DNA from: Thermodesulfobacteriota bacterium
GTDB lineage: Bacteria > Desulfobacterota > WTBG01 > CAIYCZ01 > CAIRTM01
Assembly: GCA_028282925.1 (NCBI GenBank)
Contig: JANQGV010000314.1
Span: 1-49,721, forward strand
Direction: 5' to 3'
DNA length: 49,721 nucleotides
Below are positions 16,522 through 49,612 of the stretch, one piece after another. The translations under genes and the position numbers were made by a program. The number at the start of each line of letters is the position of its first letter. Positions within the stretch are counted from its first letter, which is position 1. Under the pieces are notes generated by a model. That model did not search any database. It had not been told where the DNA came from and was given only the letters and a program-made list of their open reading frames with translations.

Positions 16522-16646
16522 AAGACCTATGGAAAATGTTCAGATACAAGGCGCGTGAAACCTTTTGGAGTGAGGCGTACTTGACTGTACGCCGCAGCGA
16601 TAAAAGGTGAGCGCAACGCAGTAAATGGATGTTTTCCATAGGTCGC
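16522..16646. repeat. Family 2 repeat
   Basis: This is a complete copy. Its ends are inverted repeats: GACCTATGGAAAA on the left pairs with TTTTCCATAGGTC on the right. The core has GGCGTAC-TTGACT-GTACGCC flanked by CCTTTT/AAAAGG. The ends and inner arms differ from other copies but still pair within this copy. It fills the gap between the DUF1460-like gene and the convergent exported protein gene. Confidence 0.85.
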
Positions 16647-16665
16647 TTATGGGATGGCCCTTTGC

Positions 16666-19223: not shown

Positions 19224-19251
19224 TTTTCAGGGATACATCAGGAAGACTTTA

Positions 19252-22592: not shown

Positions 22593-22635
22593 AGGCCCAA
22601 ATCAAGCGAAAATTCGTCGCTTGATTTGGGCCTAG
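22592..22635. repeat. Family 3 repeat, short perfect palindrome
   Basis: A 19-bp perfect stem, CTAGGCCCAAATCAAGCGA and its complement, closes a loop of 7 bases (AAATTCG). The right end supplies the TAG stop (22632-22634) of the minus-strand histidine kinase. It may double as a terminator hairpin for that gene, though no T-run follows. Confidence 0.85.
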
Positions 22636-30703: not shown

Positions 30704-33700
30704 CTACTCCTGTTGCGTGCATTCATACACTTTCTGTATAACATCATTCATCTTGAAAGGCTTGTTTAATATCGAGTGGACGCCGTTTTCCCGTATTTCG
30801 GTTGCATCGCTATCGACACTCCATCCGGTCACCAGCACTATCGGCACCGAGTCGTCACGGCTCTTAATTTCACGGGCCAACTCCCAGCCCGTCATACCGG
30901 GCATGCCCAGATCCGTAAAAACCATGTCATAGGTTCCCGGGGAAAATGTTTCCAGCGCCTTAAAACCGTCCGGTGCGGTATCAACCGTATGCCCTTCAAA
31001 CGTCAGTATATCTTTCAGCATGGCACACACTTCCTTTTCATCATCCACAACAAGAATTCGTGCTTTGTGCTGATGAAGCGGGGCCTGGTCTTCCTGAAGC
31101 ACGGCGGACGCCTTCTGCTCCGTGCTGGGAAAATGAATGGTGAAAGTCGTTCCTTGATCCACAATACTATTGATTTTTATGTTCCCGCGATGTCGGGAAA
31201 TAATTCCATAGGATACACTTAACCCCAGACCGGTCGACTTAACACCCTTGGTCGTAAAAAACGGGTCGAAAATCCTGTCCCGCAGGTCCTCGGGAACTCC
31301 GGTTCCGTTATCTTTAACCGTTACCACAACGTCCTTGCCTTCAACGAATGTTTTCAGGCAAATTTCACCGCCCCGGCTCATTGCGTCCACCGCATTGTTG
31401 ATCAGGTTGGTAAACAACTCGCGCAATTCAGACAGGTTGCCTTCCATAAAAGGCACTTCGGCATAGTCCCTGGTAATGGAGACTTCTATCCGCTTCGACT
31501 CCGAATCATCTTTCCATTTTGTCTTGGTAAACTCAACGGCATCATCCAGAACCTGGTTGATATTGACCGGTGAAAAATATGCGCTGTCGTCGTCCTGGTC
31601 TTTCCTGCGGGAGAACTCCTGAATTCTGCGCACTGTTTCCGCACCGTCAAGAGCCGCTTTTTCTATAATCAACAGACCTTCCTTCAACGTAGTAATAGAC
31701 TTTCGCCTTTCTTCCTGGTCCAGAGGGGTTTCCGTACACCTGGACAGCAACTGGGTCCGCCCCAGAATGGCCGCCAGTATATTATTGAAGTCATGGGCTA
31801 CACCCGCCGCAAGTTCTCCCAGGGAGCGCAGTTTTTCACTTTGCAGCAGTTTGCGTTCCATTTCTTTGCGTTCAGAAATATCACGCACCAGTGCGGTAAC
31901 AAAATATTCACCATGAACCTTGGAAGTATAGTAGGATATTTCGGCCGGAAATTCCCGGCCGTCTTTGCGCACCACCACCGCCTCCTTTGTAGCATCATAG
32001 GTGGCAATGTCTTCTTTCTGCGACAAAAAATCAAGGGCGCTGGACTGCGATTCCTTTTCGGACGGCCGCACAAGCTTCAGCACCGATTCCTCCAGTATCT
32101 CCTCCGCCGTATACCCGAAAATCTCCTGGGCCTTTTTATTCCAGTCGATGACCACTCCCTTGCGATTGATGGAAATAATTGCATCGTTGGCGTTCTCTAT
32201 CAGGCTGCGATACAGCTCTTCCGAGCGCTTCAATGCTTCCTCGGCCTGCTTGCGTTCCGATATATTACGGATACTGGCTACAGCCCGGAAAGGCCTGTCA
32301 TGTTCATCGTAGAGAAGCGACATATTAATCTCTACCGGAATACAGCTGCCGTCTTTTTTGCACCAGATACGCTCACCGAGCAGAATTGAGTCTATCTTCT
32401 CGGGGTTGGCCAGAATTTCTTCCTTTGAAAACCGCCGGTCCTGGACCCCTTCAGCAGCCAGCACGTTGGTATGCTGTCCGATAAGTTCTTCCCTGGCATA
32501 GCCCAGCATATTCGCGACCGATGTATTGGCCAGCGTGATATACCCGTCCAGATCACTCACCAGTATACCGTCAACAGAGTTATTGATGATGTTTTCAAGA
32601 AAATCTTTTGTTTCCTTTAATTCCTTTCCGGCTTTTCTGCGCAGGGTAATATCGCGGATAACCGATAACGCCCCGATAACAGCCCCCTGGGGACTGTGCA
32701 ACAGCACAAGATTCTGCTCAACCGGCACCAGCTTCCGGTCTTTTCGTATGACATAGGTTTCCCAACTGGTTATCTTTCCCTCTTCAAAAAGTTTGGCGGT
32801 GATATCAAAGGCCGCTTCGATATACTCTTTGGTAATCTGCACCATTTCTCCGGAGGTGCTCTCGTAGGTGCCCTCGTCCATAAAGGCAAAGGCGGCCGGG
32901 GTGTTACCCAGCACTTCCTCTTCTGTACAGTCGAGCAACTTAAGAAACGCCTTGTTCACCCGGGTAACATGTCCTTCGCTGTCACTGATGATGATGCACT
33001 CCAGCGAGCTTTCAATGATGTTATCCAGATAATCGTTTGTTTTTTGCAGCTCCTCCCGGGCGCGCTTGTTCTCCGTAATGTCACTGATACTCAGGTGTAT
33101 GACATCACGCTCCTGGTAGCGGATAATCGTCCCACTGACCTCTCCCGTGCGCAGACTGCCGTCCTTCCGCATAAAACTGAATTCACAAGAGTCTTCCTGT
33201 TCTTCCATCTCTATCAGTGCCAGCAGGTCCGTTGCCTGCATGTGCTCATCCGGACATACCAGGTCGGCAAACAGTTTTTTACCGGCAACCTCTTTCCGGC
33301 TGAACCCGAGCCAGTACTCTATATAGGAATTACAGTCGGCTATCATACCGGTACTGCCGTCTATCAGCAGAATAGTAAGATGTACGCCTTCCGACATGGC
33401 CCGGAATTTTTCCTGATCCCGCATCCGCACATAGTCAATGGCATTGCTGACCAGGCAGCTTAAAAAATCTCCCAGTAGTTCCATGGTCCGCCGGTTGCCT
33501 TCCGTGAAGGCCTCGGTCCGGCTGTGACTGATATTGATAACACCAAGCAGGCGGCCCTTGTCGACCAGGGGGGTACATAAAATAGAGCCGATCGGCACCC
33601 GGGTATCCTGCTCCAGGAACAGATCGCTTTTCTCGACATCATTTACGAGAATCGTTTTTTGCAAATCGGCGGCCTTGCCGCATACCCCCTGGCCCACCGG

Positions 33701-34054
33701 AAAGGTGATGTCGGAGTCTGCAATATCCGCATAAAACGTCAAGTCGCGGTTCCTCCCCCGGGCGGCCTTTACCACAAGCCTGTCGCCTTCGGAGTCTTTG
33801 ATCATAAACGAGCAATTTTCCGCGCTGGTCTCTTCCAGTATGATTTCAAGAAATTTTTCGCTGAAGCCCTTCAGGTCGAATATATAACGAACAATATCGC
33901 CGACCCTCCGCAGCAAAGAAAGCTCACCCACTTTTTCCTCAAACTGCTGCGTTGTTTTCCGCAACGCCTCAGCCAGGGGCGAATGCACCTGCTCGCTGCT
34001 TCGTTTTTTCATTTCTTCGCTCGATGTTTTACTCATTGACGTCTCGCTACTCAA
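30704..34054 (-). CDS. Hybrid sensor histidine kinase (GAF-PASx4-HisKA-HATPase-REC)
   Basis: A 1116-residue soluble kinase. After a coiled-coil N-terminus comes a GAF domain (about 60-210, [17 protein letters not shown]), then four PAS/PAC units (about 220-335, 345-470, 475-605 and 610-735), HisKA with [12 protein letters not shown] (His754), HATPase with [17 protein letters not shown] and STGLGLS, and a C-terminal receiver with VVDDEKE and Asp1048 in [11 protein letters not shown] and Lys in NKPF. The HDFNN box is typical of kinases with a fused C-terminal receiver. Its start overlaps the HDOD gene by 8 bases, so the two are translated together and probably work in one circuit. Confidence 0.92.
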
Positions 34055-35917: not shown

Positions 35918-37309
35918 TTACGCATTACACTCTCTGGATTCTCCATACAACTGATACGCCATACATAAAAGTGCCAGTGGTATAGTTATTATAAGCAACC
36001 GTGGAAAATCATACACCATTCCCGTCCACCAGGGAAAAGCAAATATATACGCGGCAAAGAGCAGGGCCACTGTATTAAAGAGTATCAGAAGGCTTAAAAA
36101 CCCAACCGGGAAAACCCCCACGTTCCTGGGCCTGCTGAGCAGACAGAGAACAAAGAGAAACCAGAAAGGCCCGTGGTGCCTGGTGGAAAAGAAAAGGGTC
36201 CCGCAGGCTTCCAGGAGTACCGGTAGTTTAAACAGGTTCCCGGCAAGCCGGGAAAACCGTAGCGCCGATAAAGAGAACTCCTTCTCCCAGGGCGGGACCG
36301 GAATCTGAGCACAATAGTAAAACCATGGCGCAAGCAGGACGACCGGCACTACAAGGTAGGCAGCAAAGAACAATCCCTTTCCTTTTGCCCGTTTCAGCAC
36401 AACCGGCAGGACCACCACAAAAGAGCACCCCCACAGCATAAGCCCCTCTTTCTTCGTGAAAACGGTAAAGGCCGCCAACAGGCCTGCCAGCCACACATCA
36501 CGATCCGTACCTTTTTCTATCCAGCGAATCAATGCAACAATCGCACTGAAATAAAAGAACGCCAGGGGCACATCAGCATATCCCGATGACGGGTTTCCAT
36601 GTACGTCCTGTATAAATACCGGCAGCATTGCCATACAGACGGTTAAAAGGAGTGCTTTTGTATCCGTAGTAAAACGCTTTTGCGCCGCATACAGGGCTGC
36701 AAGCACACCGGTATAAAAAAATACAAACAATACTTTTACCGTTGCGTCATCAACTTCTCCCAGGGCGGCATACACACAGCTTTCAAGCACCGGCACCATC
36801 GGCGGATAGGCATTGTGATAGATAAGCCGCTGGGCATCAAACAGCTCCTCGGCCCACACGGTTTTCTCATGGTAGTAGATTTTGGCCTTCAGGCCCCACT
36901 GTGCCCGGTCGTCGGCCAGATGCATTGGTAAAAACAGGGCACGAAACAAAACAAGCGCCATGCTTACTACAAGTACAGCAATACAGATTGCCTGAACAAT
37001 TCGCTGCCGGGGTTGCCCATTTGGTTTAGTTATAGTGGAACGCCCTTTTCGGACTTTCTTCACCATATCATACATAAACAGCGGAAGAAACACTCCCGAA
37101 AACAGCAGTATCGTTCTGAAGTCAATCGGCCCGCCCAGCAGTGATACATAAAAAACTCCCAGCCCCAGGGTTCCGGCTCCGAGCCCAAAAACAAGCGAAA
37201 GCCTGCCTGCCGTGCTTTCGCCGCCTGCCCGGTTGAAAAGGCGGGTATGCAGCACGGCACCGATGCAGTACACGCACAGCAGAAGGTATATGCATTTAAT
37301 TATGAACAT
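35918..37309 (-). CDS. Polytopic membrane protein, GT-C glycosyltransferase-like
   Basis: A 463-residue protein with about 10-12 hydrophobic segments. After two or three helices there is an extracytoplasmic loop with acidic residues and aromatics (MHLADDRAQWGLKAKIYYHE, about residues 130-149) and then YHNAYPPMVPVLES. Both blocks are typical of GT-C (family 39/ArnT-like) enzymes that take sugars from polyprenyl phosphates, with a D-D/E pair in the first loop. The acceptor is unknown. Its start overlaps the end of the upstream small membrane protein gene by 14 bases, so the two are coupled. It diverges from the radical SAM operon. Confidence 0.75.
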   Translation of the reverse strand: MFIIKCIYLLLCVYCIGAVLHTRLFNRAGGESTAGRLSLVFGLGAGTLGLGVFYVSLLGGPIDFRTILLFSGVFLPLFMYDMVKKVRKGRSTITKPNGQPRQRIVQAICIAVLVVSMALVLFRALFLPMHLADDRAQWGLKAKIYYHEKTVWAEELFDAQRLIYHNAYPPMVPVLESCVYAALGEVDDATVKVLFVFFYTGVLAALYAAQKRFTTDTKALLLTVCMAMLPVFIQDVHGNPSSGYADVPLAFFYFSAIVALIRWIEKGTDRDVWLAGLLAAFTVFTKKEGLMLWGCSFVVVLPVVLKRAKGKGLFFAAYLVVPVVLLAPWFYYCAQIPVPPWEKEFSLSALRFSRLAGNLFKLPVLLEACGTLFFSTRHHGPFWFLFVLCLLSRPRNVGVFPVGFLSLLILFNTVALLFAAYIFAFPWWTGMVYDFPRLLIITIPLALLCMAYQLYGESRECNA

Positions 37310-37796
37310 TATAGTTTTTTGACGCTAAGTCTAGATTATACATTTCCGCCACTTCACCGTTTTTCAAAGCGACTACCCTGTTAATGCCGTAGGGCACCGG
37401 GTATCGCATAACAATCCACGAAATATTTTGCTTAAGAAGGGCCTGCGTATCTATACTGCTTATTGCCGGCAAGGATTCCGGATAGGGGGCTTCTGTGTTG
37501 AGCAGGTAGAGCTTCCGGGGATATATATCATAATTGATATGCAGATCGGCACTGTTGATGTTGCTGGCCGCATTGGTAAGAAACAGCACGCCCGCACCTT
37601 CAGGTATAATTTGATTACACAGGGCGGCAAAAGCGTAAGGCTCACCCAGCAGGTGCCCCCTTTTCTCATGCACACTGGCGTCTTGCAACTGAAGAGTTTG
37701 CGCATAGGTATGATACAGCTCTCTTGCAAGGCCCCAAAGCCCGAAACAAAAGAAAAGAATAATTACAAAACCGGTAATGTAGTTCCTCTGTATCAT
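37296..37796 (-). CDS. Single-pass membrane protein of unknown function
   Basis: I chose ATG 37796 (166 residues); an alternative TTG at 37850 would add 18 residues and neither has a clear ribosome site. One membrane helix lies at about 9-25 (GFVIILFFCFGLWGL), and the rest is probably outside the cytosol. The soluble part has an alpha/beta look (GVLFLTNAASNINSADLHINYDIYPRKLYLL) like the C-terminal periplasmic portions of some GT-C proteins, so it may be a split-off domain that works with the overlapping GT-C-like protein. This is inference from position and pattern. Confidence 0.65.
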   Translation of the reverse strand: MIQRNYITGFVIILFFCFGLWGLARELYHTYAQTLQLQDASVHEKRGHLLGEPYAFAALCNQIIPEGAGVLFLTNAASNINSADLHINYDIYPRKLYLLNTEAPYPESLPAISSIDTQALLKQNISWIVMRYPVPYGINRVVALKNGEVAEMYNLDLASKNYNVHN

Positions 37797-38002
37797 GACG
37801 GAGTATGTTTTTTTCAGGGTTTCCCGGTTGCCGGAAGCAGAAAGGGACAAACATCGTTTCTGCAGGCCACAAGGCCGAACCCATCATTCAAAATCATACA
37901 AAGCGGCACTGCGCATTTCAATCAATTTTTCCGGGAAGTTTTCTGCTGCCGTAAAGGCTTTTACTTTGCAATACGGTCCTTTCATGATACAACTATTCAA
38001 CC

Positions 38003-38011
38003 TGTTATAAT
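38003..38011 (+). promoter_or_regulatory. Extended -10 promoter of the radical SAM operon
   Basis: TGTTATAAT is a perfect TGn-TATAAT extended -10. No good -35 is present, which is normal for this class. Transcription would start near 38018, only about 16 bases before the ATG at 38034. Confidence 0.55.
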
Positions 38012-38033
38012 TCCTTATACTAATCGGCTTTCC

Positions 38034-39017
38034 ATGAAACCGGACATAAGCATTATAATACCGCTGCACAACTGCGCCGACATCATAGACCAGGTGCTGG
38101 CGGCTGTTTTCAGCAGCGAGGATGTTGAAAAGGAGGTCATCCTGGTTGATGACGCCTCAACAGACAATACCCTTGAGATTGTCCGGCGTTTTCCCTGCCG
38201 GATAATTCCCTTGCAAACCCAATCCGGCCCCTCCCATGCCCGCAACAAAGGCGCACAGGCCGCCACTGCCGATATACTGATGTTTATGGATGCCGATGCC
38301 CTGATTGAAAAAGACACCCTGCAAAAAATCATGGTGGGCTTTACAGAGCACCCCGACGCGGCCTGCGTGTGCGGGACTTTTAAAAAAAACCCGGCCCATT
38401 CCTCGGCATTTGCCAGATACCGCGACCTGCAGTTGCATTACTGGCACCAGTCTACGACCGGAAACGCGTCCGTTTTCATTCTTACCGCCGGAGCAATAAA
38501 AAAAGAGGTTTTTTTAGAGGTAGGCGGCTTTGATGCGGCTTTCGGGCGCTTTGCAGACATTGAAGACTTTGAGATCGGGCACCGCATCAGCCGCGATCAC
38601 CGTATTATCGTAGACGATTCGATCTGTTTCCGGCACCTCGAACACGCCTCACCCATGCCGGTACTGATAAAAAAACTGTTCCGAAGATCACGGATGTGGA
38701 TGCCCCTTTTTTTTCAGCGCAAACGGTTTGAAAGCAATTACGCCACCTCCAACAGGGCCGCGGCCGTGCTCTGCGCCGGTGCTGCAGCAGCCTTGGGCAT
38801 TCTCGCCTTTTTTGTACCGGTTGTAGCAGTAATCGGGCTTTTCAGCCTGGTTTTATTTTTTCTGCTGGACCTGGGGTTTTACCGGTTTCTGAAAAAAGAA
38901 GGGGGGTTCGTTTTTTGCCTGTTTGCCGCCGGTGCCCATTTTATAATGAGCCTTGTGCTTTTTTGCGGCGCTGTTACCGGCTGCCTTGAAGCGGCATGGA
39001 ACAAACTAAAACCCTGA
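38034..39017 (+). CDS. Family 2 glycosyltransferase with C-terminal membrane helices
   Basis: The long open frame starts antisense to the neighbouring gene. The ATG at 38034 opens a canonical GT2 domain (MKPDISIIIPLHNCADI), giving 327 residues. LVDDASTDNT lies at 37-46, the nucleotide-sugar metal motif MDADAL at 85-90, and the acceptor-side block EVGGFDAAFGRFADIEDFEIGHR further on. Two or three hydrophobic helices at about 237-320 anchor it to the membrane. It probably moves a sugar from a nucleotide donor to a lipid-linked acceptor at the inner face. It is the first gene of the operon, 13 bases before the first B12 radical SAM gene. Confidence 0.88.
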   Translation: MKPDISIIIPLHNCADIIDQVLAAVFSSEDVEKEVILVDDASTDNTLEIVRRFPCRIIPLQTQSGPSHARNKGAQAATADILMFMDADALIEKDTLQKIMVGFTEHPDAACVCGTFKKNPAHSSAFARYRDLQLHYWHQSTTGNASVFILTAGAIKKEVFLEVGGFDAAFGRFADIEDFEIGHRISRDHRIIVDDSICFRHLEHASPMPVLIKKLFRRSRMWMPLFFQRKRFESNYATSNRAAAVLCAGAAAALGILAFFVPVVAVIGLFSLVLFFLLDLGFYRFLKKEGGFVFCLFAAGAHFIMSLVLFCGAVTGCLEAAWNKLKP

Positions 39018-39030
39018 CATATCTGTACAT

Positions 39031-40458
39031 ATGAAAGTACTGTTTATCTATAACTACAATTATATCGAACCCATCGGGCTCATGTACCTGTCAAGCTCCT
39101 TGAAACGGGCCGGGCATGAAACCTTTTTTTACGATATTGCCCTGAGCACAGGACTTGAGCGCTATGTCGATGCCGTCCGCCCCGACATCATCGCCTACTC
39201 CATTGTTACCGGCACCCATACCTTTTATGCCGAAATCAACAGCCGCCTGAAAAAACGGTTCTCTTTTCTGGCGGTGTTCGGCGGGCCCCATGCAACCTTC
39301 TATCCGGACTTCATTGAAGAAGGCGGGGTTGACGCTATTTGCCGGGGCGAGGGCGAAGGGGCCATGGTCGAACTTGCCGACCGCCTCCAACGCGGCGAGC
39401 AGGTACATGATATTCAGAACCTTTGGGTAGACGCAGGAGGCATCGTCCACAAAAACCCGCTGCGCCCCCTTGAGCCTTCCCTTGACGCACTGCCACTCCC
39501 CGACCGGGAGCTTCTGTACACCTATCCGGTCTATCGTCTGCGCTCCAACAAATATATCCTCACGTCCCGCGGCTGTCCGTTTGACTGCACGTACTGCTTC
39601 AACCATTCCCTCAAAAAACTCTATGAGGGCAAAGGAACTTTTTGCAGGAAACGAAGCATCGGGGGCGTGCTGCAGGAAATAGACGAGCTTTGCCGTATGG
39701 CACCGGCCAAAACCCTGCAGTTTTTCGACGATGTTTTTATCCTCGACAAGCAGTGGGTGCTTGATTTCTGCCGGGAGTACCGCAAAGAGGTGGGCCTGCC
39801 CTTTATCTGTTATGTGCGCGTCAACCTGGTTGATGAAGATATTATTGCCGCCCTGAAATCTGCCGGTGCGGTTACCATTACCTTTGCCGTGGAAACCGCC
39901 AACAACCACCTCCGAAACACCGTTCTTAAACGCAACATTACCGATGAGCAGATTTTCTCCACCGTCGCCCTGCTCCAGAAGTACGACATTCCCTATTTTA
40001 TCCAAAACATGATCGGTTTGCCCGGCGAAACAATTAACGATGCGCTTGATACCATGCGCTTGAATATCGGCTGCAAACCGTCTTTTGCCGTCGCCTCCCT
40101 GTTTCAGCCCTATCCCGGCACCGAGCTCACCGACTATGCCGTTGAAAAGGGATTTTGTGAAGAAAGCCTGGACATAAACCACCAGTCTTTTTATGAAAAA
40201 TCGGTACTGAAACTTGAAAACAAACACCTCTTTGAAAACTGCGCCTGGCTCTTTCCCCTGGCAATCCTGATGCCCCGCCTGGCCTCTTTTGTGTCATGTA
40301 TCATTAAAATTCCAGCGGGTCCCATCTATAAGATCATCTGGCATTTAAGCCGTTGCTGGGGATATTTTTTTCGTATATACTGGATTTCGCCCCGGGATGT
40401 CATACGATATGTACTGAGACGAAAACGCCAAGGAGGAAGCCCCTTTGTGGAAAAATAA
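39031..40458 (+). CDS. B12-binding domain radical SAM protein 1
   Basis: A 475-residue protein. The N-terminal cobalamin-binding-like Rossmann domain (about 1-140) shows GGPHATFYPDF (84-94) and CRGEGEGAMVELADRL but lacks the D-x-H-x-x-G lower-ligand motif, as is common in this class. The radical SAM cluster motif is CPFDCTYC (Cys182, 186, 189). The C-terminal 90 residues are rich in hydrophobic and basic segments (LFPLAILMPRLASFVSCII, IYKIIWHLSRCWGYFF), suggesting a membrane-bound substrate. Known relatives methylate unreactive carbons or form rings on lipids and natural products. The substrate here is unknown. Confidence 0.88.
   Translation: MKVLFIYNYNYIEPIGLMYLSSSLKRAGHETFFYDIALSTGLERYVDAVRPDIIAYSIVTGTHTFYAEINSRLKKRFSFLAVFGGPHATFYPDFIEEGGVDAICRGEGEGAMVELADRLQRGEQVHDIQNLWVDAGGIVHKNPLRPLEPSLDALPLPDRELLYTYPVYRLRSNKYILTSRGCPFDCTYCFNHSLKKLYEGKGTFCRKRSIGGVLQEIDELCRMAPAKTLQFFDDVFILDKQWVLDFCREYRKEVGLPFICYVRVNLVDEDIIAALKSAGAVTITFAVETANNHLRNTVLKRNITDEQIFSTVALLQKYDIPYFIQNMIGLPGETINDALDTMRLNIGCKPSFAVASLFQPYPGTELTDYAVEKGFCEESLDINHQSFYEKSVLKLENKHLFENCAWLFPLAILMPRLASFVSCIIKIPAGPIYKIIWHLSRCWGYFFRIYWISPRDVIRYVLRRKRQGGSPFVEK
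40431..40437 (+). promoter_or_regulatory. Ribosome binding site setting a TTG start
   Basis: AGGAGGA lies 8 bases before TTG 40445, inside the end of the preceding radical SAM gene. No ATG in frame fits better. Confidence 0.7.
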
Positions 40459-41209
40459 AAAGGTATCGGTTGTTCTTCCCACATACAATGAAAAAAAATC
40501 CATCCGCCGGGTGATTGAGGAGTTTTTTGCCACCGGCTATGTTGACGAAATAATCGTGGTAAACAACAACGCCGCCCCCGGCACCAGCGAAGAGGTAGAA
40601 AAAACCCGCGCCGTGCAGGTGTTTGAGACCCGCCAGGGCTATGGCTATGCCATGCAGCGCGGCATGCAGGAGGCCGCAGGCGACCTCATTATCCTGTCCG
40701 AACCCGATGGAACCTTTTCCGGCGACGACGTTTTGAAACTGCTGGCCTACTCCGATGATTTTGAGGTAGTGTTCGGTTCCCGCACCACACCGAAGCTGAT
40801 CGATTACCGTGCCAACATGGGTATGTTTCTGAGGGCCGGCAACTGGTTTGTGGCCAAGCTGATCGAGTTTCTCTTTTTAACCAACATTCTTACCGATGTC
40901 GGCTGCTCCATGAAGCTGCTGTCGCGCGGTGCCTACGAACAAATCAGGGGCCGCTTTACGGTGGGGACATCTCACTTCAGCCCGGAGCTGATGTGTTTGG
41001 TCATTCTTGATGATATCCGATTCATTGAAATACCGGTAAAATACAAAAAGCGCGAAGGCAAATCAATGGTCACCGGAAAGCGCCTGACCGCGATTGTTGT
41101 TGGGCTTAGAATGATTATGCTCATTTTCAAGTATCGTTTTGTAAACTTCTTCTCCAAGCGCAACAATATTAATCACCCCAATCAAGCCCTTGGTCACCAT
41201 GAAGACTAG
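40445..41209 (+). CDS. Family 2 glycosyltransferase, dolichol-phosphate-mannose-synthase-like
   Basis: A 254-residue soluble GT2 starting at TTG 40445 (overlap of 14 bases with the gene before). VSVVLPTYNEKKSI opens the domain, the donor-site block is SEPDGTFSGDDV, and the C-terminal EIPVKYKKREGKSMV stretch is typical of DPM/DPG-synthase-like enzymes. One region is unusual: VVNNNAAPGTSE stands where most GT2 enzymes have V-D-D-x-S-x-D. There is no C-terminal membrane domain. Enzymes of this group load a sugar onto polyprenyl phosphate, which GT-C proteins then use as donor, and this operon lies between two GT-C-like genes. Confidence 0.85.
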   Translation: MWKNKKVSVVLPTYNEKKSIRRVIEEFFATGYVDEIIVVNNNAAPGTSEEVEKTRAVQVFETRQGYGYAMQRGMQEAAGDLIILSEPDGTFSGDDVLKLLAYSDDFEVVFGSRTTPKLIDYRANMGMFLRAGNWFVAKLIEFLFLTNILTDVGCSMKLLSRGAYEQIRGRFTVGTSHFSPELMCLVILDDIRFIEIPVKYKKREGKSMVTGKRLTAIVVGLRMIMLIFKYRFVNFFSKRNNINHPNQALGHHED

Positions 41210-42266
41210 CAACTGGCTTGCCGCCGGCAGGTCGTTTTTCAGCGCATCGCCGCCGTACCTGATCTTTCAGGTAACCTCACACTGTAATGCCCGCTGCCGC
41301 ACCTGTTTCAACTGGGAAATTGTTGAGGCGGAAAAACATGATGATCTTACCCTGGATGAAATCGAAAAATGCGCAAAACAGTACGGCCGTCTCCTGCAGT
41401 TGACCATTGGCGGCGGGGAACCCTTCCTCAGGGACGACCTGTCCGAGATTTGCCGGCTCTTCAACGCCGCAACGTCCGTACAGCACATCACCATACCGAC
41501 CAATGCGTTGTTGCCCCAAAAAATCGACACAACCGTGAGAACCATCCTCAAGGACTGTAATGTAAACTATGTGCGGGTCGGGCTTTCCCTTGACGGAATC
41601 GGGGATGAGCATGACCGGCTTCGTAATGTTCCCGGAAATTATGAAAAGCTGCTGGAAACCTACCGCCTGCTGTGCGACATTAAAAAGCATCACTCCAACT
41701 TCGGTATCGAGATCAGCACCGTCTTGTCCGGTTTTAATAAAGACACTCTTAAAGATACCATCAAGCGCGTATCGCAGCTCTTTCCCGACATAGACAAACA
41801 TGCCGTAGTGCTTGCCCGGGGCAGCATGCCTGAACCCCGGCCCGAAGACATCGATGCCGAAACCTACCGGGAAACTATCCGCGAGCTTGTCCAGGCCAAC
41901 GCTACCCGAACCCCCCCCCTGCTTGCCCGGGGGTTTGAAACCCTCTACACCATGTGCACCGAAGCGGTGACACATCATATGGAAAAAGGGGCTCTGCCTC
42001 TTGAGTGCCTGGCAGGCCGACGGCTGATTGTCATAATGTCCGACGGCAGTGTCTTCCCCTGCGAAACCCTGCAACAAAAGCTGGGCAACCTCAGGCAATC
42101 CGGCTATAATATTCATGCGATTCTGAATAGCTCCCGGGCCCGGGAAATGAAAGCTTTTATTAAAAACAGGGGCTGTTCGTGTACGTTCGAGTGTGCCATA
42201 CACGCCAGCCTGATTTTCAACATGCGCCACTACCCGAAACTGGCGTATAAAATGCTGAAGCATTGA
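41199..42266 (+). CDS. Radical SAM protein with SPASM-like C-terminus
   Basis: I chose ATG 41199 (355 residues) over TTG 41190; it overlaps the previous gene by 11 bases. The cluster motif is CNARCRTC (Cys29, 33, 36). GGGEPFLRDDL at 71-81 is the SAM-binding motif. The C-terminus has the SPASM-like order ECLAG...SDGSVFPCETL...CSCTFEC, which could hold an additional iron-sulfur cluster. There is no cobalamin domain. SPASM proteins modify peptides, sugars or alcohols; no small precursor peptide gene is visible in the operon, so a non-peptide substrate is more likely. Confidence 0.87.
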   Translation: MKTSNWLAAGRSFFSASPPYLIFQVTSHCNARCRTCFNWEIVEAEKHDDLTLDEIEKCAKQYGRLLQLTIGGGEPFLRDDLSEICRLFNAATSVQHITIPTNALLPQKIDTTVRTILKDCNVNYVRVGLSLDGIGDEHDRLRNVPGNYEKLLETYRLLCDIKKHHSNFGIEISTVLSGFNKDTLKDTIKRVSQLFPDIDKHAVVLARGSMPEPRPEDIDAETYRETIRELVQANATRTPPLLARGFETLYTMCTEAVTHHMEKGALPLECLAGRRLIVIMSDGSVFPCETLQQKLGNLRQSGYNIHAILNSSRAREMKAFIKNRGCSCTFECAIHASLIFNMRHYPKLAYKMLKH

Positions 42267-42270
42267 CCAG

Positions 42271-42957
42271 ATGATGAAGCAGCACAATATTTTTGAAGAC
42301 ATGTTCAGCGAAAAAGAGCTGCAATCACGCCGGGCTCTCTGGCAGGTGCTGTGCGCCGACTTCTTCCAGCGCTATATTGCTTCGGGCGATACCGTGCTTG
42401 ATCTTGGCGCCGGTTTTTGCGAGTTTATCAACACTATTCACTGCAAAAAAAAGATCGCCGTCGACTGCAACAACCACACTGCACGCCATGCCGGACCGGA
42501 CGTCCAATGTTTTTCTGTAGATTCCTGCGCCCTTTCAGGCGTTGTTGCTCCGAATACGGTCGACGCCGTTTTCATGAGTAACTTTCTCGAACACCTGCCC
42601 GATGTGGACGCACTGACGGCAACCCTGGCCGAAGCAAAAAAAATACTGAAACCCGGCGGAAAGCTTCTTATCCTGCAGCCCAACATCCGCTATGCCTATA
42701 AAGTCTACTGGGACTTTATCGACCACCGCCTGCCCCTCAGCCACAAAAGCCTTTCCGAAGCCGTTATGCATGCCGGGTTTGACATTGTCGAACTGAAACC
42801 GAAGTTTCTGCCCTGGAGTACCAAATCGCATCTGCCCCAGCATCCACTACTGGTTAAATTGTACCTGAAATGTCCCCCGGCCCAATATATCATGGGCAAG
42901 CAGCTCTTTCTGTATGCACGGAAACCCGCAAATGAACCTTCACCGGAAGCAGGATAA
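42271..42957 (+). CDS. Class I SAM-dependent methyltransferase
   Basis: The 228-residue protein has motif I VLDLGAGFCEF (42-52), an acidic post-I region (IAVDCNNHTA), motif with MSNFLEHLPD (about 99-108), and LKPGGKLLIL (about 126-135), all in the order of the UbiE/small-molecule methyltransferase group. It is soluble. The cysteine-rich C-terminal third contains no known domain. It sits 4 bases after the SPASM gene and 3 bases before the next radical SAM gene, so it is part of the same pathway. O- or N-methylation of the glycan or lipid product is a guess from context. Confidence 0.88.
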   Translation: MMKQHNIFEDMFSEKELQSRRALWQVLCADFFQRYIASGDTVLDLGAGFCEFINTIHCKKKIAVDCNNHTARHAGPDVQCFSVDSCALSGVVAPNTVDAVFMSNFLEHLPDVDALTATLAEAKKILKPGGKLLILQPNIRYAYKVYWDFIDHRLPLSHKSLSEAVMHAGFDIVELKPKFLPWSTKSHLPQHPLLVKLYLKCPPAQYIMGKQLFLYARKPANEPSPEAG

Positions 42958-42960
42958 ACC

Positions 42961-44373
42961 ATGGCACGGATTGCACTGCTGCGAACTCCAAAAATGCTCG
43001 GGTATCCCTTCACCAACTTTCTCAGTTTCCCACTTGGGTTAATGTATCTTGCTTCTGCCCTGCGGCAGTCCGGCGGCCATACCGTTACCATTATTGACCC
43101 TAAACTGAAATACCTTTCCGACGAAGAGATTCTCCACAAGCTTTCCGAATTTTCCCCCGACTATATCGGCATCAACGGCATGACCTATGAGGCCGAGGAA
43201 ATACACCGTATGGCCCCCATGCTAAAAAAGGCGTTCCCCGGTACGCCCGTACTGATCGGCGGTGTGCATGCCTCGGTTGACCCTGAAGCGCTTATTGAAA
43301 ATCCCGATATCGATTATGTTGTTATTGGAGAAGGAGAGCGGACCCTGCCGCGCCTCATTGATGAGATTGAAAGAGGCAACTCCTGCCCCGACCTGGATGG
43401 CCTTGCCTTTCGTGGAGCCGTTGGAAAGGTCGTGCTTCGTCCGCTAACCGACATTATTTCCGACCTTGACACCCTGCCGTTTCCCGCCTGGGACCTCATC
43501 GACGTGGACCAATATTTCCCCAAGGTCAGGCAAAGCGTCATCTACGCCCAAAAGCGTTATATGACCATTTTTTCTTCCCGGGGGTGTCCGTATCAATGCA
43601 CGTACTGCCACCGGGTATTCGGCAAGCAGTTTCGGGCCCGCAGCCCCGAAAACGTTTTCCAGGAAATTAAACACTTATACGAACACTACGATATACGAGA
43701 ACTGCACATTGCCGACGACTGCTTTAATCTTGATATTGAGCGGGCCGAAGCGATTCTTGACCTTATCTGCTCAAACGGCCTTAAGCTCAACATCTCGTTT
43801 CCCAACGGTCTGCGGGCAGACCGGCTGACTCCCGGCCTGCTTCGCAAAATGAAGGCTGCCGGCACCTACATGGTCTCTTATGCCGTGGAAACCGCTTCGC
43901 CCCGCCTGCAGAAAGCCATTAAAAAGAATGCGCAGCTTGATAAAATCCTTGAGGTTGTGAAGGAGACCGACCGCCTGGGCATTATTGCCAACGGTTTTTT
44001 TATGATGGGGTTTCCCGGCGAAACCCGTGAAGAAATGGATATGACCATACAGTATGCCTGCCGCTCACGCTTTCATACAGCAAGTTTCTTTGTAGTAACG
44101 CCAAATCCCGGTACAGAGCTGCATGCAGACGTGCAGAATGCAATTCTCAAAAAAGCGGATAACGGCGGGCAGTTTCATTACTTTCATACCTATGGCATCA
44201 GCGAAGTTGACGACCGGACACTGCAAAAACTCCTTAAACAGGCAAACTACCGCTTTTACGGCAACCCGCGCAGAATGCTCCGCTTTTTATATCTGCTGCC
44301 CCACAAGCGCTGCCTGCCACAACTGTTTATGCGGTTTGCCAAACGTTCTTTTTTAAAAGGCTATGAAGACTAA
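42961..44373 (+). CDS. B12-binding domain radical SAM protein 2
   Basis: A 470-residue protein of the same class as the one at 39031 but clearly different in sequence. The cobalamin-like domain (about 1-160) shows IGGVHASVDPEAL (99-111) and VIGEGERTLPRLIDEIE. The cluster motif is CPYQCTYC (Cys209, 213, 216). The TIM-barrel segments NGLRADRLTPGLLRKMKAAG and FFMMGFPGETREEM are typical. The C-terminal 60 residues are basic (GNPRRMLRFLYLLPHKR). An 85-base gap follows before the next gene, the only sizeable gap in the operon. Confidence 0.88.
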   Translation: MARIALLRTPKMLGYPFTNFLSFPLGLMYLASALRQSGGHTVTIIDPKLKYLSDEEILHKLSEFSPDYIGINGMTYEAEEIHRMAPMLKKAFPGTPVLIGGVHASVDPEALIENPDIDYVVIGEGERTLPRLIDEIERGNSCPDLDGLAFRGAVGKVVLRPLTDIISDLDTLPFPAWDLIDVDQYFPKVRQSVIYAQKRYMTIFSSRGCPYQCTYCHRVFGKQFRARSPENVFQEIKHLYEHYDIRELHIADDCFNLDIERAEAILDLICSNGLKLNISFPNGLRADRLTPGLLRKMKAAGTYMVSYAVETASPRLQKAIKKNAQLDKILEVVKETDRLGIIANGFFMMGFPGETREEMDMTIQYACRSRFHTASFFVVTPNPGTELHADVQNAILKKADNGGQFHYFHTYGISEVDDRTLQKLLKQANYRFYGNPRRMLRFLYLLPHKRCLPQLFMRFAKRSFLKGYED

Positions 44374-44458
44374 ACTGCGCATACGGTGCAAAGGCTTTTT
44401 GGGAATAAATAGAGTTTTCGATTTTCGGCGGTGATATCGTTATTTTGGAGAAACACAG

Positions 44459-45916
44459 GTGAAGGTACTCTTTTGTGCCAAGGGCCAGGAAACACTGGCG
44501 ATTGAATATATATCAGCGGCCCTGAAGGAAGCCGGTCATCGGGTTGAGCTGCTGTTTGAGCCCGAATTTGACGGCGGCATGGGTTTTCTTCCGCCCTACG
44601 GCATGAAGCTGCTGCAGCGAAAAAACCGTTTTTTAGACGCTATAAAAACGTTTGATCCCGACCTGATTGCCTTTTCCTGCCCGCTGAATATTTACCCCTT
44701 TGTAAAAAAAACCGCCCGGCTGATCAAGCTGCATTTTTCCATTCCGATTGTTGTCGGTGGAGGGCACCCGACCCTTGCCCCGGACTACCTGATGCAAAAT
44801 CCTGATATCGATATTGTCTGCATCGGCGAAGGCGAAGAGCCAATGGTGGAGCTGGCCGATAAAATGGAGCGCGGCATCGATTACTCCGACACCCGCAATT
44901 TCTGGTTCCGGAAAAACGGGTCGCTCATTAAAAACGAGGTGCGGCCCCTGCTTGAAGACCTCGACCGTCTCCCGTTTCCCGACCGCGACCTCTTTTACCA
45001 TCACGGCTGCTTTGCCGGCAATCTCTATTTCGTCGCCGGGCGCGGTTGCCCCTTTCAGTGTACCTACTGCTGCCAGCATGCCTTCCAGCAGACGTACCGC
45101 GGCAAGGGAAAGTACGTACGTCTGCGCAGTGTTGAAAATGTTATCCAGGAACTTGAAGTATGCATCAAAACCTATGATGTACAGCATATCCACTCGGAAG
45201 ACGACACCTTCACCATTCATCACCAGTGGCTCCACGATTTCTGCGACGAATACAAAAAACAGATCAATGTCCCGCTCTACTGTCATGTTCGCCCGGGAAC
45301 GCTTTCGGCCGACCTGTTGCAGAGAATGAAAAAGGCCGGCTGCGAGGCTGTTTTTTTCGGCATTGATTCCGGCTGCGAAGAGCTTCGCAAATCGCTGCTC
45401 AAAAGAGATATCTCCAACGACACCATCTACAGCCAGGCGAAGCTTATTAAAGAAGCGGGCATCCGACTGGCCAGCGCCTCAATGTTCGGCCTTCCCGGTG
45501 AAACCCCGCAGCAAATGCATGAAACGTTCCGGATGGCCATTGATATTCAAAGCGATTTTGCCTACGACAGCATCTTTTACCCCTTTTACGGAACAGAGCT
45601 GTATGACTACGCCGTTCAAAACGGCTATCTGAACGAAAAAAACCAGCACGACATTAAAGAGGGGCTGGGATCGCCCTATCAGTATCCCCTGCTTACCGGC
45701 GAACACAATGATCTTGCCATGACCATGAAAAACTGCTTACCGGCATATGCCCGGTTTGCATCTTTAAGGCCGTTTCTTGATCTGGTGATAAAAAAAAGGT
45801 GGCTTAAGCTCAGCGGACTTGTTAACCTGTTGCTGACCCCGTTCAGCTATGCCTTTATGGGGCGCCTCAAGCGCAAAGAAATCCTGCAGACAATCCTGGG
45901 GTATTTTAAACCATGA
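44459..45916 (+). CDS. B12-binding domain radical SAM protein 3
   Basis: The GTG start at 44459 has GGAG 9 bases upstream. The protein has 485 residues. The cobalamin-like domain (about 1-150) includes VVGGGHPTLAPDY (98-110) and CIGEGEEPMVELADKM. The cluster motif is CPFQCTYC (Cys197, 201, 204) followed by a further Cys. C-terminal hydrophobic segments (LVNLLLTPFSYAFMG) suggest contact with membrane. It is a close paralogue of the next gene: the first 45 residues, the NFWF block and the LDRLPFPDRDLF block match almost residue for residue. The stop overlaps the next start by 4 bases. Confidence 0.88.
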   Translation: MKVLFCAKGQETLAIEYISAALKEAGHRVELLFEPEFDGGMGFLPPYGMKLLQRKNRFLDAIKTFDPDLIAFSCPLNIYPFVKKTARLIKLHFSIPIVVGGGHPTLAPDYLMQNPDIDIVCIGEGEEPMVELADKMERGIDYSDTRNFWFRKNGSLIKNEVRPLLEDLDRLPFPDRDLFYHHGCFAGNLYFVAGRGCPFQCTYCCQHAFQQTYRGKGKYVRLRSVENVIQELEVCIKTYDVQHIHSEDDTFTIHHQWLHDFCDEYKKQINVPLYCHVRPGTLSADLLQRMKKAGCEAVFFGIDSGCEELRKSLLKRDISNDTIYSQAKLIKEAGIRLASASMFGLPGETPQQMHETFRMAIDIQSDFAYDSIFYPFYGTELYDYAVQNGYLNEKNQHDIKEGLGSPYQYPLLTGEHNDLAMTMKNCLPAYARFASLRPFLDLVIKKRWLKLSGLVNLLLTPFSYAFMGRLKRKEILQTILGYFKP

Positions 45917-47379
45917 AAATACTCTTTTTTGCCAAAGGCCACGAATCCCTTGCCATTGAGGCCCTCTCGGCCATGCTGAAGCAGGCCGGGCATGAGGTTT
46001 CCTTGCTGTTTGACCCGGGGCTCGACAGCGTGCTTGGATTTCTTGATCTTGCCTGGCTCAGGCAAAAAAACGACCAGCGGCATATACGGTTCATCGATGC
46101 CTTTCAGCCCGATCTGATCTGCTTTTCCGCACTGACAAACCTGTATTCGTTTGTTGCCGAGAAAGCTGCGCTTATAAAAAAGCATTTTTCAATTCCCATA
46201 GTTGTGGGCGGGATGCACCCGACCCTGGTCCCCGAGTTCGTTCTCGCCAATCCGCATATCGATATGATTTGCCTCGGCGAGGGAGACGAAGCCCTGCTTG
46301 AGCTGGCCTGTGCCATGGAGCAGGGCAAAGATTATTACACTCTTCAGAATTTCTGGTTTAAGAAAGACGGCGCTGTTATTAAAAACCCGCTGCGCCCCCT
46401 TATTCAGGACCTTGACCGCCTGCCCTTCCCCGACCGCGACCTCTTTCATCAATACGGCACGTTTGCGGGAACACTCTATATCACCACCGGACGCGGCTGT
46501 CCCTTTACCTGCACCTATTGCTGTCACCATACCCTGCAGAAAATGTACCGCCACAAAGGGTGCTATGTCCGGCGCAGAAGCGTTGAGAATGTTATCCGGG
46601 AGCTTGAGCAGTGTGTCACCCGCTACACGGTCAAGTCTGTTTATTCAATGGACGACACCTTTACCCTGGATGAGGCCTGGATCGAGACCTTTGCCGACGA
46701 ATACCGCAAAAGGATAAAGCGGCCCCTGTATTGTCATGTCAGACCGGGCACCATAACCCGCAACATGCTTGACAGCCTGTGCAAAGCAGGCTGCACCGAT
46801 GTGTTTTACGGCATTGATTCCGGCAACGAAGAGGTACGGTTCAAACTGATGAACAGGAAGATCACAAACGAAACAATGCTACAAGACACACAACTCTTAA
46901 AAGACTACGGCATTTCCGTAACCACGTCGGCCATTTTCGGATTTCCCCACGAGACACCCCGACAGATGATGGAAACGGTTGAGCTGATAAAAACCATTAA
47001 AAGCGATTTTGCCTATACCTATATGTTTTATCCCTTTCCCGAGACCGATTCTTTTAACTACTGCAGGGAACACGGTTTGATCGACGAAGAAACAGTGGAT
47101 AAAATACTTACCGGCCATGGTTCCTTCCACCAGAAATCGCTGCTGAAATCAGACTCGGCCGACTTTGCCCTGCTGCTGAAAAACATGCTGCCGTTCAGCG
47201 TAACCTTTCCCCGCCTGCAGTGGCTTGCCGACATGCTGATTCAAAACAGGTGGTATACCCTGAGCAGGTTGATTTTCATTCTCTCTGCGCCCATTACCTA
47301 CGCCCAATACGGCCGCAATAAAATCCGCGAGCTTGTGTCCATGGCGCTGGCAAACATGCGCATGAGACTGCCCGGCTAG
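45913..47379 (+). CDS. B12-binding domain radical SAM protein 4 (tandem paralogue)
   Basis: A 488-residue protein sharing its whole architecture with the gene just before. VVGGMHPTLVPEF is at 98-110, CLGEGDEALLELACAM follows, and the cluster motif is CPFTCTYC (Cys196, 200, 203), again followed by a further Cys. Shared blocks include FRKNGSLIKN/FKKDGAVIKN, YCHVRPGT and GIDSG. The pair probably arose by tandem duplication and now carries out successive or alternative steps. It ends 30 bases from the convergent GT-C-like gene. I see no hairpin terminator in that gap. Confidence 0.88.
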   Translation: MKILFFAKGHESLAIEALSAMLKQAGHEVSLLFDPGLDSVLGFLDLAWLRQKNDQRHIRFIDAFQPDLICFSALTNLYSFVAEKAALIKKHFSIPIVVGGMHPTLVPEFVLANPHIDMICLGEGDEALLELACAMEQGKDYYTLQNFWFKKDGAVIKNPLRPLIQDLDRLPFPDRDLFHQYGTFAGTLYITTGRGCPFTCTYCCHHTLQKMYRHKGCYVRRRSVENVIRELEQCVTRYTVKSVYSMDDTFTLDEAWIETFADEYRKRIKRPLYCHVRPGTITRNMLDSLCKAGCTDVFYGIDSGNEEVRFKLMNRKITNETMLQDTQLLKDYGISVTTSAIFGFPHETPRQMMETVELIKTIKSDFAYTYMFYPFPETDSFNYCREHGLIDEETVDKILTGHGSFHQKSLLKSDSADFALLLKNMLPFSVTFPRLQWLADMLIQNRWYTLSRLIFILSAPITYAQYGRNKIRELVSMALANMRMRLPG

Positions 47380-47409
47380 CCTTTACTCTTTTTAATTGCG
47401 TATTGATAT

Positions 47410-49338
47410 TTAATGAAACAGCCCGCCAAAGGTAGCAAACACTGCGGGATAGCTGAAGAAGAGGGTCACGTTTTCAGGAGGATTCTTTAGCGTAATGAAG
47501 CCCACCGGATCCTGGTAAAAAAGGGTCGGTTCCACTGGAACTTCAGGAGTTGCCCGGAAATAGCGCGACCAGTGATAGGATATGATAACCGTGTCGTCCT
47601 CGGGCTGCACGTTGCTCAGTTCAATACGGCTCGGTCTTGCCGTGATTTTTCCGCTGCCCTTGAGAAAAAAGGTGCCGTTCCTCCGGGCGGTATACACATG
47701 AAAGTCTTCTATCTTTTTGCTTAGTAAAAACCGCTCGGGAGCACCGGAAAAAAGGCTTTTGGAACCTTCCGACCAGACAATGACCCACCGTATATTATAC
47801 AACTCTATATAGCGCCAGAGTTCATCAGCCGAAAAACCCGCAACATCCCGGCCAAAAAGCAGGCCGTCGGCGAAGCTGCTGAACTGGTCAGGGGTCGGTG
47901 TATAGGGAGAGTAATTGCCCAGGAATTCCCTGCCGGTTAACAGGGGAAACAGATACGACATATGGGTACCATAATACTGGTGACCGGTGGCAAAATCGGA
48001 ATTCTCTATCAGCACCCGTCCGTTCGGATCGGTATTGTCCTTCAGCCACTGGACCAGTTCCTCCAGGGGTTTCGGTACAGTTGTTTGCAGGCGAAAATCT
48101 TTCTTTACGAAAAGATGATAATACGGGGTGGCACAGACTGCAGCGACTATGCAAAAAACAATCACCCATAAACCGACCATGACTTTCCGTTTTCCGGATC
48201 GTTTGATCCTGGAAAACAGGGCACACAGCCCCACCGCCGCCGGAAACAGAAGCAGCATGTTCAGGAAAATGACAAAACGCAGCGGGGTCAGCCGTGCCGT
48301 AACATCCCAGAATGAACCGTAATAGGCCAGCACGAACATTGAAAAGGCGCTCGCACCAAACAGATACCCTGCTAGCTGCTGTCGGCGTAATACCAGACAG
48401 ATTACTCCTGCAATTCCGCACACAAGCAGCAACAGGTCTACAAACCCTGTTTTCTGAAACGGTATATTCATATACTCATTAAACTTCGGATTGAGCCGTA
48501 TATAGGTATTAAACGGTTCCAGAAGGGACTCGGTAACATAAAAAAACGATGGCGGAAAGCCTCCGCTTTCCTTAATCAGCGTCAGGCTGGGCAAAAGCCA
48601 CAAACTGTTACTCAGCAGCACAAACAGTGCTGCTCCGGCAATCAGCAGATGCTCCCGCACGGAAAGCCTTGCAATTGATAACCCGTAACAGACCAGGCCG
48701 GGCACAAGCACATGCACTGCGGTAAACACATGCACTGCAAAACCGTAGGAAAGCAGCAGGGCAAACCACAACACATCGAAAAATTTTTTATGTTTGGAAA
48801 AATGCACCAGAAAAGAAACGGAAAGGATGCTGAGATAACACGACAGGATATATGAAACGGTTCCCCAGTAGAGAAAATCAACACAAATGCTCACCTGCAA
48901 AAAGATCGTTCCCGCAAAGGCGCTCACAATCCCTTCGGTGCGGCCCAGGCCGAAATTACGTGCGCTGACATACAGAAACAGTGGTACTCCAAGCAGGGTC
49001 AGTAATATGTAGAGTTTATAGGCAAAACCCGTAGAGAACCATCCCAGCGCGGCGACAAAAAGCGCCCAGCCGTAATTATCAACCGACGTTACCGCCGTAT
49101 ACGCTGTTCCGGCCCGTAAAAAAGGATTATACGCAAACAGCATGCCGAAGTTCCGCAGATATCCGGCCTTATACAGGGCATCGCCGTAATGGATACTGTA
49201 ATCATCAGTATATACAGGATTTGAGGAAAACCACTCGCTCACCGGGATATAGCAGTGGGTAAAACCGGCCTGAAGAAAAACCAGCAGGGCAAGCACAAAA
49301 ACATGGTTTTTCTTTTGTCTTTGTTTTACCGGCTCCAT
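47410..49338 (-). CDS. Large polytopic membrane protein, GT-C/YfhO-like
   Basis: A 642-residue protein from ATG 49338, which has AAAGGG 11 bases upstream (an in-frame GTG at 49350 is less likely). There are about 12 hydrophobic segments in the first 430 residues, then a soluble extracytoplasmic domain of about 200 residues. The first loop has acidic and aromatic residues (NPVYTDDYSIHYGDAL, about 40-55), as in GT-C sugar transferases. The soluble part contains LVQWLKDNTDPNGRVLIENS and WRYIELYNIRWVIVWS, as in YfhO-like and related oligosaccharide-modifying proteins. It faces the radical SAM operon in convergent orientation and probably serves the same glycan. Confidence 0.78.
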   Translation of the reverse strand: MEPVKQRQKKNHVFVLALLVFLQAGFTHCYIPVSEWFSSNPVYTDDYSIHYGDALYKAGYLRNFGMLFAYNPFLRAGTAYTAVTSVDNYGWALFVAALGWFSTGFAYKLYILLTLLGVPLFLYVSARNFGLGRTEGIVSAFAGTIFLQVSICVDFLYWGTVSYILSCYLSILSVSFLVHFSKHKKFFDVLWFALLLSYGFAVHVFTAVHVLVPGLVCYGLSIARLSVREHLLIAGAALFVLLSNSLWLLPSLTLIKESGGFPPSFFYVTESLLEPFNTYIRLNPKFNEYMNIPFQKTGFVDLLLLVCGIAGVICLVLRRQQLAGYLFGASAFSMFVLAYYGSFWDVTARLTPLRFVIFLNMLLLFPAAVGLCALFSRIKRSGKRKVMVGLWVIVFCIVAAVCATPYYHLFVKKDFRLQTTVPKPLEELVQWLKDNTDPNGRVLIENSDFATGHQYYGTHMSYLFPLLTGREFLGNYSPYTPTPDQFSSFADGLLFGRDVAGFSADELWRYIELYNIRWVIVWSEGSKSLFSGAPERFLLSKKIEDFHVYTARRNGTFFLKGSGKITARPSRIELSNVQPEDDTVIISYHWSRYFRATPEVPVEPTLFYQDPVGFITLKNPPENVTLFFSYPAVFATFGGLFH

Positions 49339-49612
49339 CGAAAAATACACCCTTTCAGCGGAAACTACTCATACATCTGGAAAAATACTGTTTGGACACT
49401 ATACTACAAATAGTATTGGCAAAATATCACTTTTTTCGCAAATAATTGCACTCAAATTCCTGGATTTTCTACGATAAAAGTATAAAATCCTAATAAGTAA
49501 TACCTTGAAGCACAGATGCTTTCAGGTTAGAATGAATCGGTTTGAACAGGCCTGCCGGTTCCGGATTTTGATAAAGGCGGAAACTGACGGGCCTTTCACT
49601 CAACGACAACTA
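49339..49612. other. Upstream region of the GT-C/YfhO-like gene, with a palindrome
   Basis: There is no gene here. ATACTA-CAAA-TAGTAT at 49401-49416 is a perfect 16-base palindrome (6-base arms), and its edge overlaps a minus-strand TATAGT (49398-49403) that could be a -10 box. It might be an operator, but there is only one copy and no regulator gene nearby. From 49417 to 49612 I see nothing recognisable. Confidence 0.3.

Follow-up and report, generated by a model that had tools for sequence, protein, structure and literature searches.

What does a bacterium make with four B12-binding radical S-adenosylmethionine (SAM) enzymes packed among glycosyltransferase genes? The question is raised by contig JANQGV010000314.1 (GCA_028282925.1) of a Thermodesulfobacteriota bacterium, whose 49,721 nucleotides (nt) are the window analysed here and the source of all coordinates not assigned to another locus. 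Eight of its plus-strand genes form one run (38034-47379), encoding in order a family 2 glycosyltransferase (GT2a), a B12-binding radical SAM enzyme (B12_1), a DPM-like family 2 glycosyltransferase (DPM), a SPASM radical SAM enzyme, a methyltransferase (MT) and three further B12-binding radical SAM enzymes (B12_2, B12_3 and B12_4). Minus-strand genes with GT-C-type products lie on either side, GTC_A together with ORF184 to the left and GTC_B to the right. The evidence consists of protein families, predicted folds, gene order and orthology, together with the recurrence of related gene sets and a GT-C enrichment near them. Comparison with relatives makes this interval look like a core of seven genes joined by a second, separable glycosyltransfer module (ORF184-GTC_A-GT2a). 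The core, together with one SPASM-type radical SAM enzyme, may well constitute a pathway for cell-envelope glycosylation that uses radical chemistry to tailor a lipid-carried sugar, either ahead of its transfer or close to that step, a reading to which we give slightly less than an even chance. What stands out is the recurring gene combination, not the count of five radical SAM enzymes.

The core emerges from comparison with a member of another genus of the same family, Deltaproteobacteria bacterium Dive96_bin3.122 (G004), where one strand of contig JAJRXD010000124.1 (G004:C93) carries in order a SPASM gene, GTC_B, B12_1, DPM, MT, B12_2, an extra B12-binding radical SAM gene, B12_3 and B12_4. 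Seven genes of the window are syntenic there at 52-79% identity: B12_1 (39031-40458; 57%), DPM (40445-41209; 79%, the highest value in the block), MT (42271-42957; 55%), B12_2 (42961-44373; 64-65%), B12_3 (44459-45916; 61%) and B12_4 (45913-47379; 61%), all on the plus strand, and GTC_B (47410-49350, minus strand; 52%). GTC_B and B12_4 are convergent in the window, 30 nt apart; in G004, GTC_B is co-directional with the radical SAM core and part of the same run. With this synteny kept in a second genus, the arrangement goes beyond chance. Among the matches listed from 84,980 species genomes, a set that may omit the window's own record, the exact core occurs only in the window genome and in G004. 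The SPASM protein of G004 differs from that of the window (28%), and no counterpart of GT2a was found in G004 at an E-value of 1e-30.

The left side of the interval shows another pattern. ORF184 (37296-37850, minus strand), GTC_A (35918-37309, minus strand) and a GT2a-like gene stand together without radical SAM genes in G001, a member of the family (locus L211), where the orthologs share 35% identity with ORF184 and 38-39% with GTC_A. Since this trio occurs there without radical SAM genes, the interval appears to hold two modules, and its treatment as a single block in the initial annotation was rejected on this ground and on the missing match to GT2a in G004.

The eight-gene run itself, with the families initially assigned to it, is borne out by coordinates and Pfam matches. 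Its seven junctions range from -20 to +85 nt, six of them falling between -20 and +13: GT2a and B12_1 are 13 nt apart, B12_1 overlaps DPM by 14 nt, DPM overlaps the SPASM gene by 20 nt (or by 11 nt if the latter starts at the ATG at 41199), gaps of 4 and 3 nt separate the SPASM gene from MT and MT from B12_2, and B12_3 overlaps B12_4 by 4 nt. The largest gap, 85 nt between B12_2 and B12_3, fits a run described as mostly tight.

Related gene sets recur well beyond the two genera. Most of the genomes compared are drafts or metagenome-assembled genomes (MAGs), with genes at other loci taken from a simple open reading frame (ORF) caller, and several membrane neighbours at these loci match no Pfam family, so that GT-C-like there denotes a call from length and number of transmembrane helices only. 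In a tree of 59 related proteins, two deep clades stand out, of which one divides into a B12_1 clade and a B12_3/4 clade (13 rows each) and the other contains B12_2. B12_3 and B12_4 are tandem paralogs, and their duplication predates the split of the two genera, because each groups with its own G004 counterpart with full support. Two more families of the phylum likewise bring all three clades together along with DPM-like and/or GT-C-like genes, namely on G083:C72, with six B12-binding domains, a GT2a gene and a YfhO-family protein, and on G027:C111, with DPM-like, MT and two PMT_2 genes. In a Bacteroidota MAG (L110), B12_1-clade and B12_3/4-clade genes lie beside a DPM-like gene and a multi-transmembrane protein; in Omnitrophota (L107 and L108), B12_3/4-clade genes accompany DPM-like and multi-transmembrane genes, L107 having in addition a B12_2-clade gene. 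The initial annotation had staked its proposal on the genes being found together in other genomes, and they are.

A count that does not depend on calls from length and helix number concerns the GT-C family PMT_2, members of which lie within 5 kb of 12 of the 57 related radical SAM clusters, against 2.25 expected from density under uniform placement; none of 100,000 simulations reached 12. The count comes from hand-transcribed hits in 11 genomes that were picked for their B12_2 relatives, the window being one of the 12. The number of radical SAM enzymes is unexceptional for the phylum. Five in one short pathway had been called exceptional, but G027:C111 (L083, L203 and L204) carries 18 B12-binding domains, five PMT_2 genes and methyltransferase-like genes on 67 kb, and G047 has at least seven related radical SAM matches within 15 kb. 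In the latter genome, a tandem array of B12_2-type enzymes (G047:C1:3184000-3199000; L205 and L206) lies beside an alpha/beta hydrolase resembling haloalkane dehalogenases, and similar hydrolases were seen in L085 and L083. A relative of B12_4 on an Undinarchaeota MAG contig (L111, 10001-11455) groups with an Omnitrophota protein with full support, which suggests either inter-domain transfer or a binning error.

All four B12-binding enzymes of the window have an N-terminal B12-binding domain (PF02310; 8e-18 to 5e-23) followed by a radical SAM domain (PF04055), and all four carry the CX3CX2C motif in the form RGCPxxCTYC. Their C-terminal ends are basic, that of B12_1 being hydrophobic as well. 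None of the four reaches any curated subfamily model (best scores 97-189 bits against cut-offs of 360-750 for those models), and we therefore named no subfamily; the second way in which the initial proposal could have failed, placement of these enzymes in known families with unrelated substrates, did not come about. The AlphaFold model of B12_4 (pLDDT 91) has Rossmann-like strands in its B12-binding part and matches best, jointly, AprD4 (Z 28.0, rmsd 2.9, 400 residues) and MgmA (Z 28.0, rmsd 3.1, 378 residues), followed by CysS, OxsB and TsrM. The modelled fold of B12_4 is that of the class 1 cobalamin-dependent radical SAM enzymes; cobalamin binding and chemistry are predicted, as structural matches speak to fold and not to function. 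AprD4 retains this fold without using the cofactor, and the fold match is no guide to whether the enzyme methylates or catalyses another reaction.

The surroundings of the cobalt provide a further point of comparison. The residue under the cobalt, in the loop after strand 3, is Asn186 in OxsB, Arg69 in TsrM and Trp76 in TokK (PMC13331322). At the position aligned with Trp76 of TokK, B12_1 has Gly, B12_2 has Tyr and B12_3 and B12_4 have Asn, the same residue in each case being found in the G004 ortholog; distant relatives vary here, with Pro or Tyr and Ala among those of B12_2 and B12_3/4. The four enzymes may thus differ in their cobalt environment, though this alignment gives only a hint, given that Asn186 of OxsB aligns two positions earlier.

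Among the partners of these enzymes, DPM is a putative polyprenyl-phosphate glycosyl synthase (PF00535) with weak matches, at about 1e-6, to the structures of DPM synthase and ArnC; it reached no equivalog cut-off. The SPASM protein (41190-42266, plus strand, with a likely start ATG at 41199) combines PF04055 with PF13186 (30.3 bits against a cut-off of 21.5). The canonical SPASM pattern is CX9-15GX4C followed by a second cysteine cluster; the protein has CX12GX4C and a second cluster, CX1CX3C, that is shorter than the canonical one. In G012 a relative of this protein has GT2a and DPM genes as neighbours, and in G047 the neighbours are B12_2-like genes. MT is a class I SAM methyltransferase (PF13489/PF08241, Methyltransf_23/11).

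The GT-C assignment of the flanking genes also stands, for GTC_B by predicted structure and for GTC_A by a PMT_2 match. GTC_B (646 residues) belongs to no Pfam or NCBIfam family. Its model (pLDDT 77) has a GT-C fold and is closest to yeast STT3 (Z 23.5, rmsd 4.1, 469 residues), followed by AglB, AftA, PglB, DPY19 and ArnT. Within it, residues 418-551 resemble the AglB-S2 soluble domain (Z 8.8, 111 residues). An acidic DD after the first transmembrane helix is invariant across ten aligned homologs. On the strength of this model GTC_B probably works like a GT-C enzyme. It should not be called an oligosaccharyltransferase, because the WWDxG motif is absent; none was seen in the ten aligned homologs. 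In a search of 297 genomes of the phylum, the GTC_B family was confined to the window's own class. A second GTC_B copy (about 50%) is located in G004 apart from the radical SAM core, on G004:C157 (L192, 504-2444).

In the second module, GTC_A is a GT-C-like protein of 463 residues with multiple transmembrane helices, whose PMT_2 match (PF13231) is barely above the cut-off (26.2 versus 26.1 bits). ORF184, with one transmembrane helix and a soluble domain, matches no Pfam family. The two genes overlap in two genera (window 35918-37850; L211 8874-11853), with a family 2 glycosyltransferase gene following in the relative, and from its sequence pattern and position ORF184 is probably a detached periplasmic domain of GTC_A. 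The pair resembles a GT-C enzyme in two pieces, one in the membrane and the other a separate periplasmic part. In Bacteroidota L110, a 178-residue gene product with one transmembrane helix is encoded next to a multi-transmembrane gene (16610-19235), and in L178 (6262-9690) a GT-C-like membrane part with a weak PMT_2 match is fused to a sulfatase-family domain and adjoins a B12_4 relative. GT2a (38034-39017, plus strand; PF00535, 8.5e-30) ends in three transmembrane helices; its listed ORF opens at 37428, the ATG at 38034 being the likely start. Relatives of GT2a adjoin radical SAM or DPM genes in G083, G012 and G047.

From these elements we infer a substrate, a reaction for each radical SAM enzyme, an order of steps and a final acceptor. 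DPM would load a sugar onto polyprenyl phosphate at the cytoplasmic face. The B12-binding enzymes would then alter the carbon skeleton of the polyprenyl-linked sugar or glycolipid, most likely by C-methylation, with rearrangement or deoxygenation as possible alternatives. The SPASM enzyme and MT might contribute oxidation or epimerisation, plus O-methylation, and GTC_B would transfer the product outside the membrane. GT2a and GTC_A/ORF184 would act as a second glycosyltransfer module joined to this core. More broadly, and quite tentatively, the window may represent a widespread and as yet undescribed envelope glycosylation system. Enzymes of the three B12-binding clades would act serially on a polyprenyl-phosphate-linked sugar, yielding sugars that are branched or altered in the ring, and dedicated GT-C enzymes (in this genome from an OST-like family lacking WWDxG) would attach these to a surface acceptor; such a system would extend over deltaproteobacteria-like bacteria, Omnitrophota, Bacteroidota and possibly archaea.

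Several observations weigh against the glycosylation pathway. The block contains no nucleotide-sugar biosynthesis genes, and no member of the three B12-binding clades has a known substrate. In G042 (L215), a B12_2 relative has no obvious GT-C neighbour, and a DPM ortholog in G041 (L207) has no radical SAM gene nearby. The Trp of TokK and CysS (PMC13331322) is not at the aligned position in any of the four B12-binding enzymes. In Omnitrophota L107 (14550-15936), moreover, a B12_2 relative lies next to genes for a ketoacyl-acyl carrier protein synthase III and a small possible carrier protein, which would fit an acyl-chain substrate. This last neighbourhood leads to an alternative that we consider unlikely, in which the radical SAM enzymes build an unusual chain, lipid or polyprenyl, by methylation, cyclisation or cross-linking, with the GT2 and GT-C enzymes only adding sugar to it. 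A ladderane-type profile, which ranks with the better matches for the B12_3/4 and B12_1 clades, and the basic C-terminal ends of the enzymes would agree with such a role, but the window block and the G004 locus both lack fatty-acid and isoprenoid genes, and all profile scores are far under their cut-offs. Squalene-hopene cyclase (PF13249) was not found in G000, G004, G083 and G027 (90-96% complete), and hopanoids are unlikely for this reason; the hopanoid route, one of the parallels drawn initially, was rejected.

Somewhat more doubtful is an ordinary O-antigen or capsule island, in which each radical SAM enzyme would tailor a different nucleotide or repeat-unit sugar and no single pathway would exist. 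Omnitrophota L108, where a Wzx-type flippase gene and additional sugar and membrane genes lie close to relatives of B12_4, DPM, B12_2 and B12_3, has this appearance, as do the large radical SAM islands with PMT genes in G027. The window block, however, is devoid of flippase, polymerase, epimerase and nucleotidyltransferase genes, and the order of the core genes is kept across genera. That the SPASM and B12-binding enzymes modify a ribosomally synthesized peptide or protein that is then glycosylated seems very improbable: the model for ApyD, which acts on such peptides, is among the best matches, though sub-threshold, and the protein glutamine methylase MgmA is a top structural match, but the run has no peptidase or ABC exporter and no convincing precursor ORF was found in the three intergenic stretches covered, on which ground the route was rejected, although a remote precursor may exist. 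Coincidental clustering of duplicated, unrelated neighbours is scarcely credible. Radical SAM paralogs do duplicate in tandem in this phylum, but synteny across genera, the return of the three clades alongside DPM-like and GT-C-like genes in further families and even other phyla, and PMT_2 enrichment near related enzymes all speak against coincidence. The overall interpretation of the initial annotation, an envelope glycolipid or polyprenyl-linked sugar with unusual carbon-carbon modifications, thus gains from co-occurrence, the GT-C reading and PMT_2 enrichment, and loses its exceptional enzyme number, its single block and its hopanoid parallel.

The surroundings of the block give few additional clues. 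Its base composition does not mark it as foreign, and the remaining genes of the window are mostly housekeeping and signalling genes, including large PAS/GAF-type hybrid histidine kinases (22632-25208 and 30704-34054) with no evident connection to it. Divergent promoter-like sites (37893-38011) occupy the 183-nt gap before GT2a, one on the plus strand before GT2a (37984-38011; 10/12, extended -10) and one on the minus strand before ORF184 (37921-37893); these are weak candidates, being consensus matches in a region whose total is about the shuffle mean. No Rfam match to a cobalamin riboswitch was obtained within the window.

For most B12-dependent radical SAM enzymes, no substrate is known. 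Should the linkage to DPM-like loaders and GT-C enzymes prove functional, an entire group of them would gain lipid-carried sugars as a likely class of substrate, and a direct assay with it. Radical chemistry that remodels sugars is familiar mainly from aminoglycoside and nucleoside antibiotics; the related sets in distant microbes suggest an undescribed remodelling of the carbon skeleton of a surface sugar on its lipid carrier, and, with a functional linkage, many uncultured microbes would be coated with sugars remodelled in this way at the lipid-carrier stage. In the literature, which was covered in part, we found no paper on a B12-binding radical SAM cluster with polysaccharide, lipopolysaccharide, glycosyltransferase or DPM, which does not prove novelty; with the same partial coverage, only a general metagenome survey was found for Omnitrophota, and for radical SAM enzymes with YfhO or GT-C only glycosylation papers without radical SAM.

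Among characterised systems, the class 1 cobalamin-dependent radical SAM enzymes (MgmA, TokK, CysS, OxsB and TsrM) share with the block enzymes a B12-binding Rossmann domain followed by a radical SAM barrel, the CX3CX2C motif and a whole-chain fold match; the block enzymes differ in reaching no curated subfamily and in having Gly, Tyr or Asn at the Trp76 position of TokK. AprD4, a radical SAM 1,2-diol dehydratase acting on the aminosugar paromamine, is a joint best fold match to B12_4, whereas scores for its family (NF033070) are 57-82 bits against a cut-off of 500 and its motif aligns as CX3CX3C. HpnJ and the hopanoid B12-binding enzymes are among the better profile matches (TIGR03471, 95-165 bits, highest for B12_2), well short of the cut-off of 577.6 and with squalene-hopene cyclase missing as described above. 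GTC_B shares with oligosaccharyltransferases (STT3, AglB and PglB) and other GT-C enzymes (ArnT, AftA/AftD, DPY19 and YfhO) the GT-C fold and an acidic DD after the first transmembrane helix, and it has an AglB-like C-terminal soluble domain; it departs from them in lacking WWDxG, in its low identity (~9-14%) and in having no Pfam match. To our knowledge, the known three-part systems of GT2 loader, flippase and GT-C enzyme include no radical SAM enzymes, and unlike the YfhO-type systems the block has no flippase; what it shares with these systems and with the DPM/ArnC loaders is the pairing of a GT2 loader with a GT-C enzyme.

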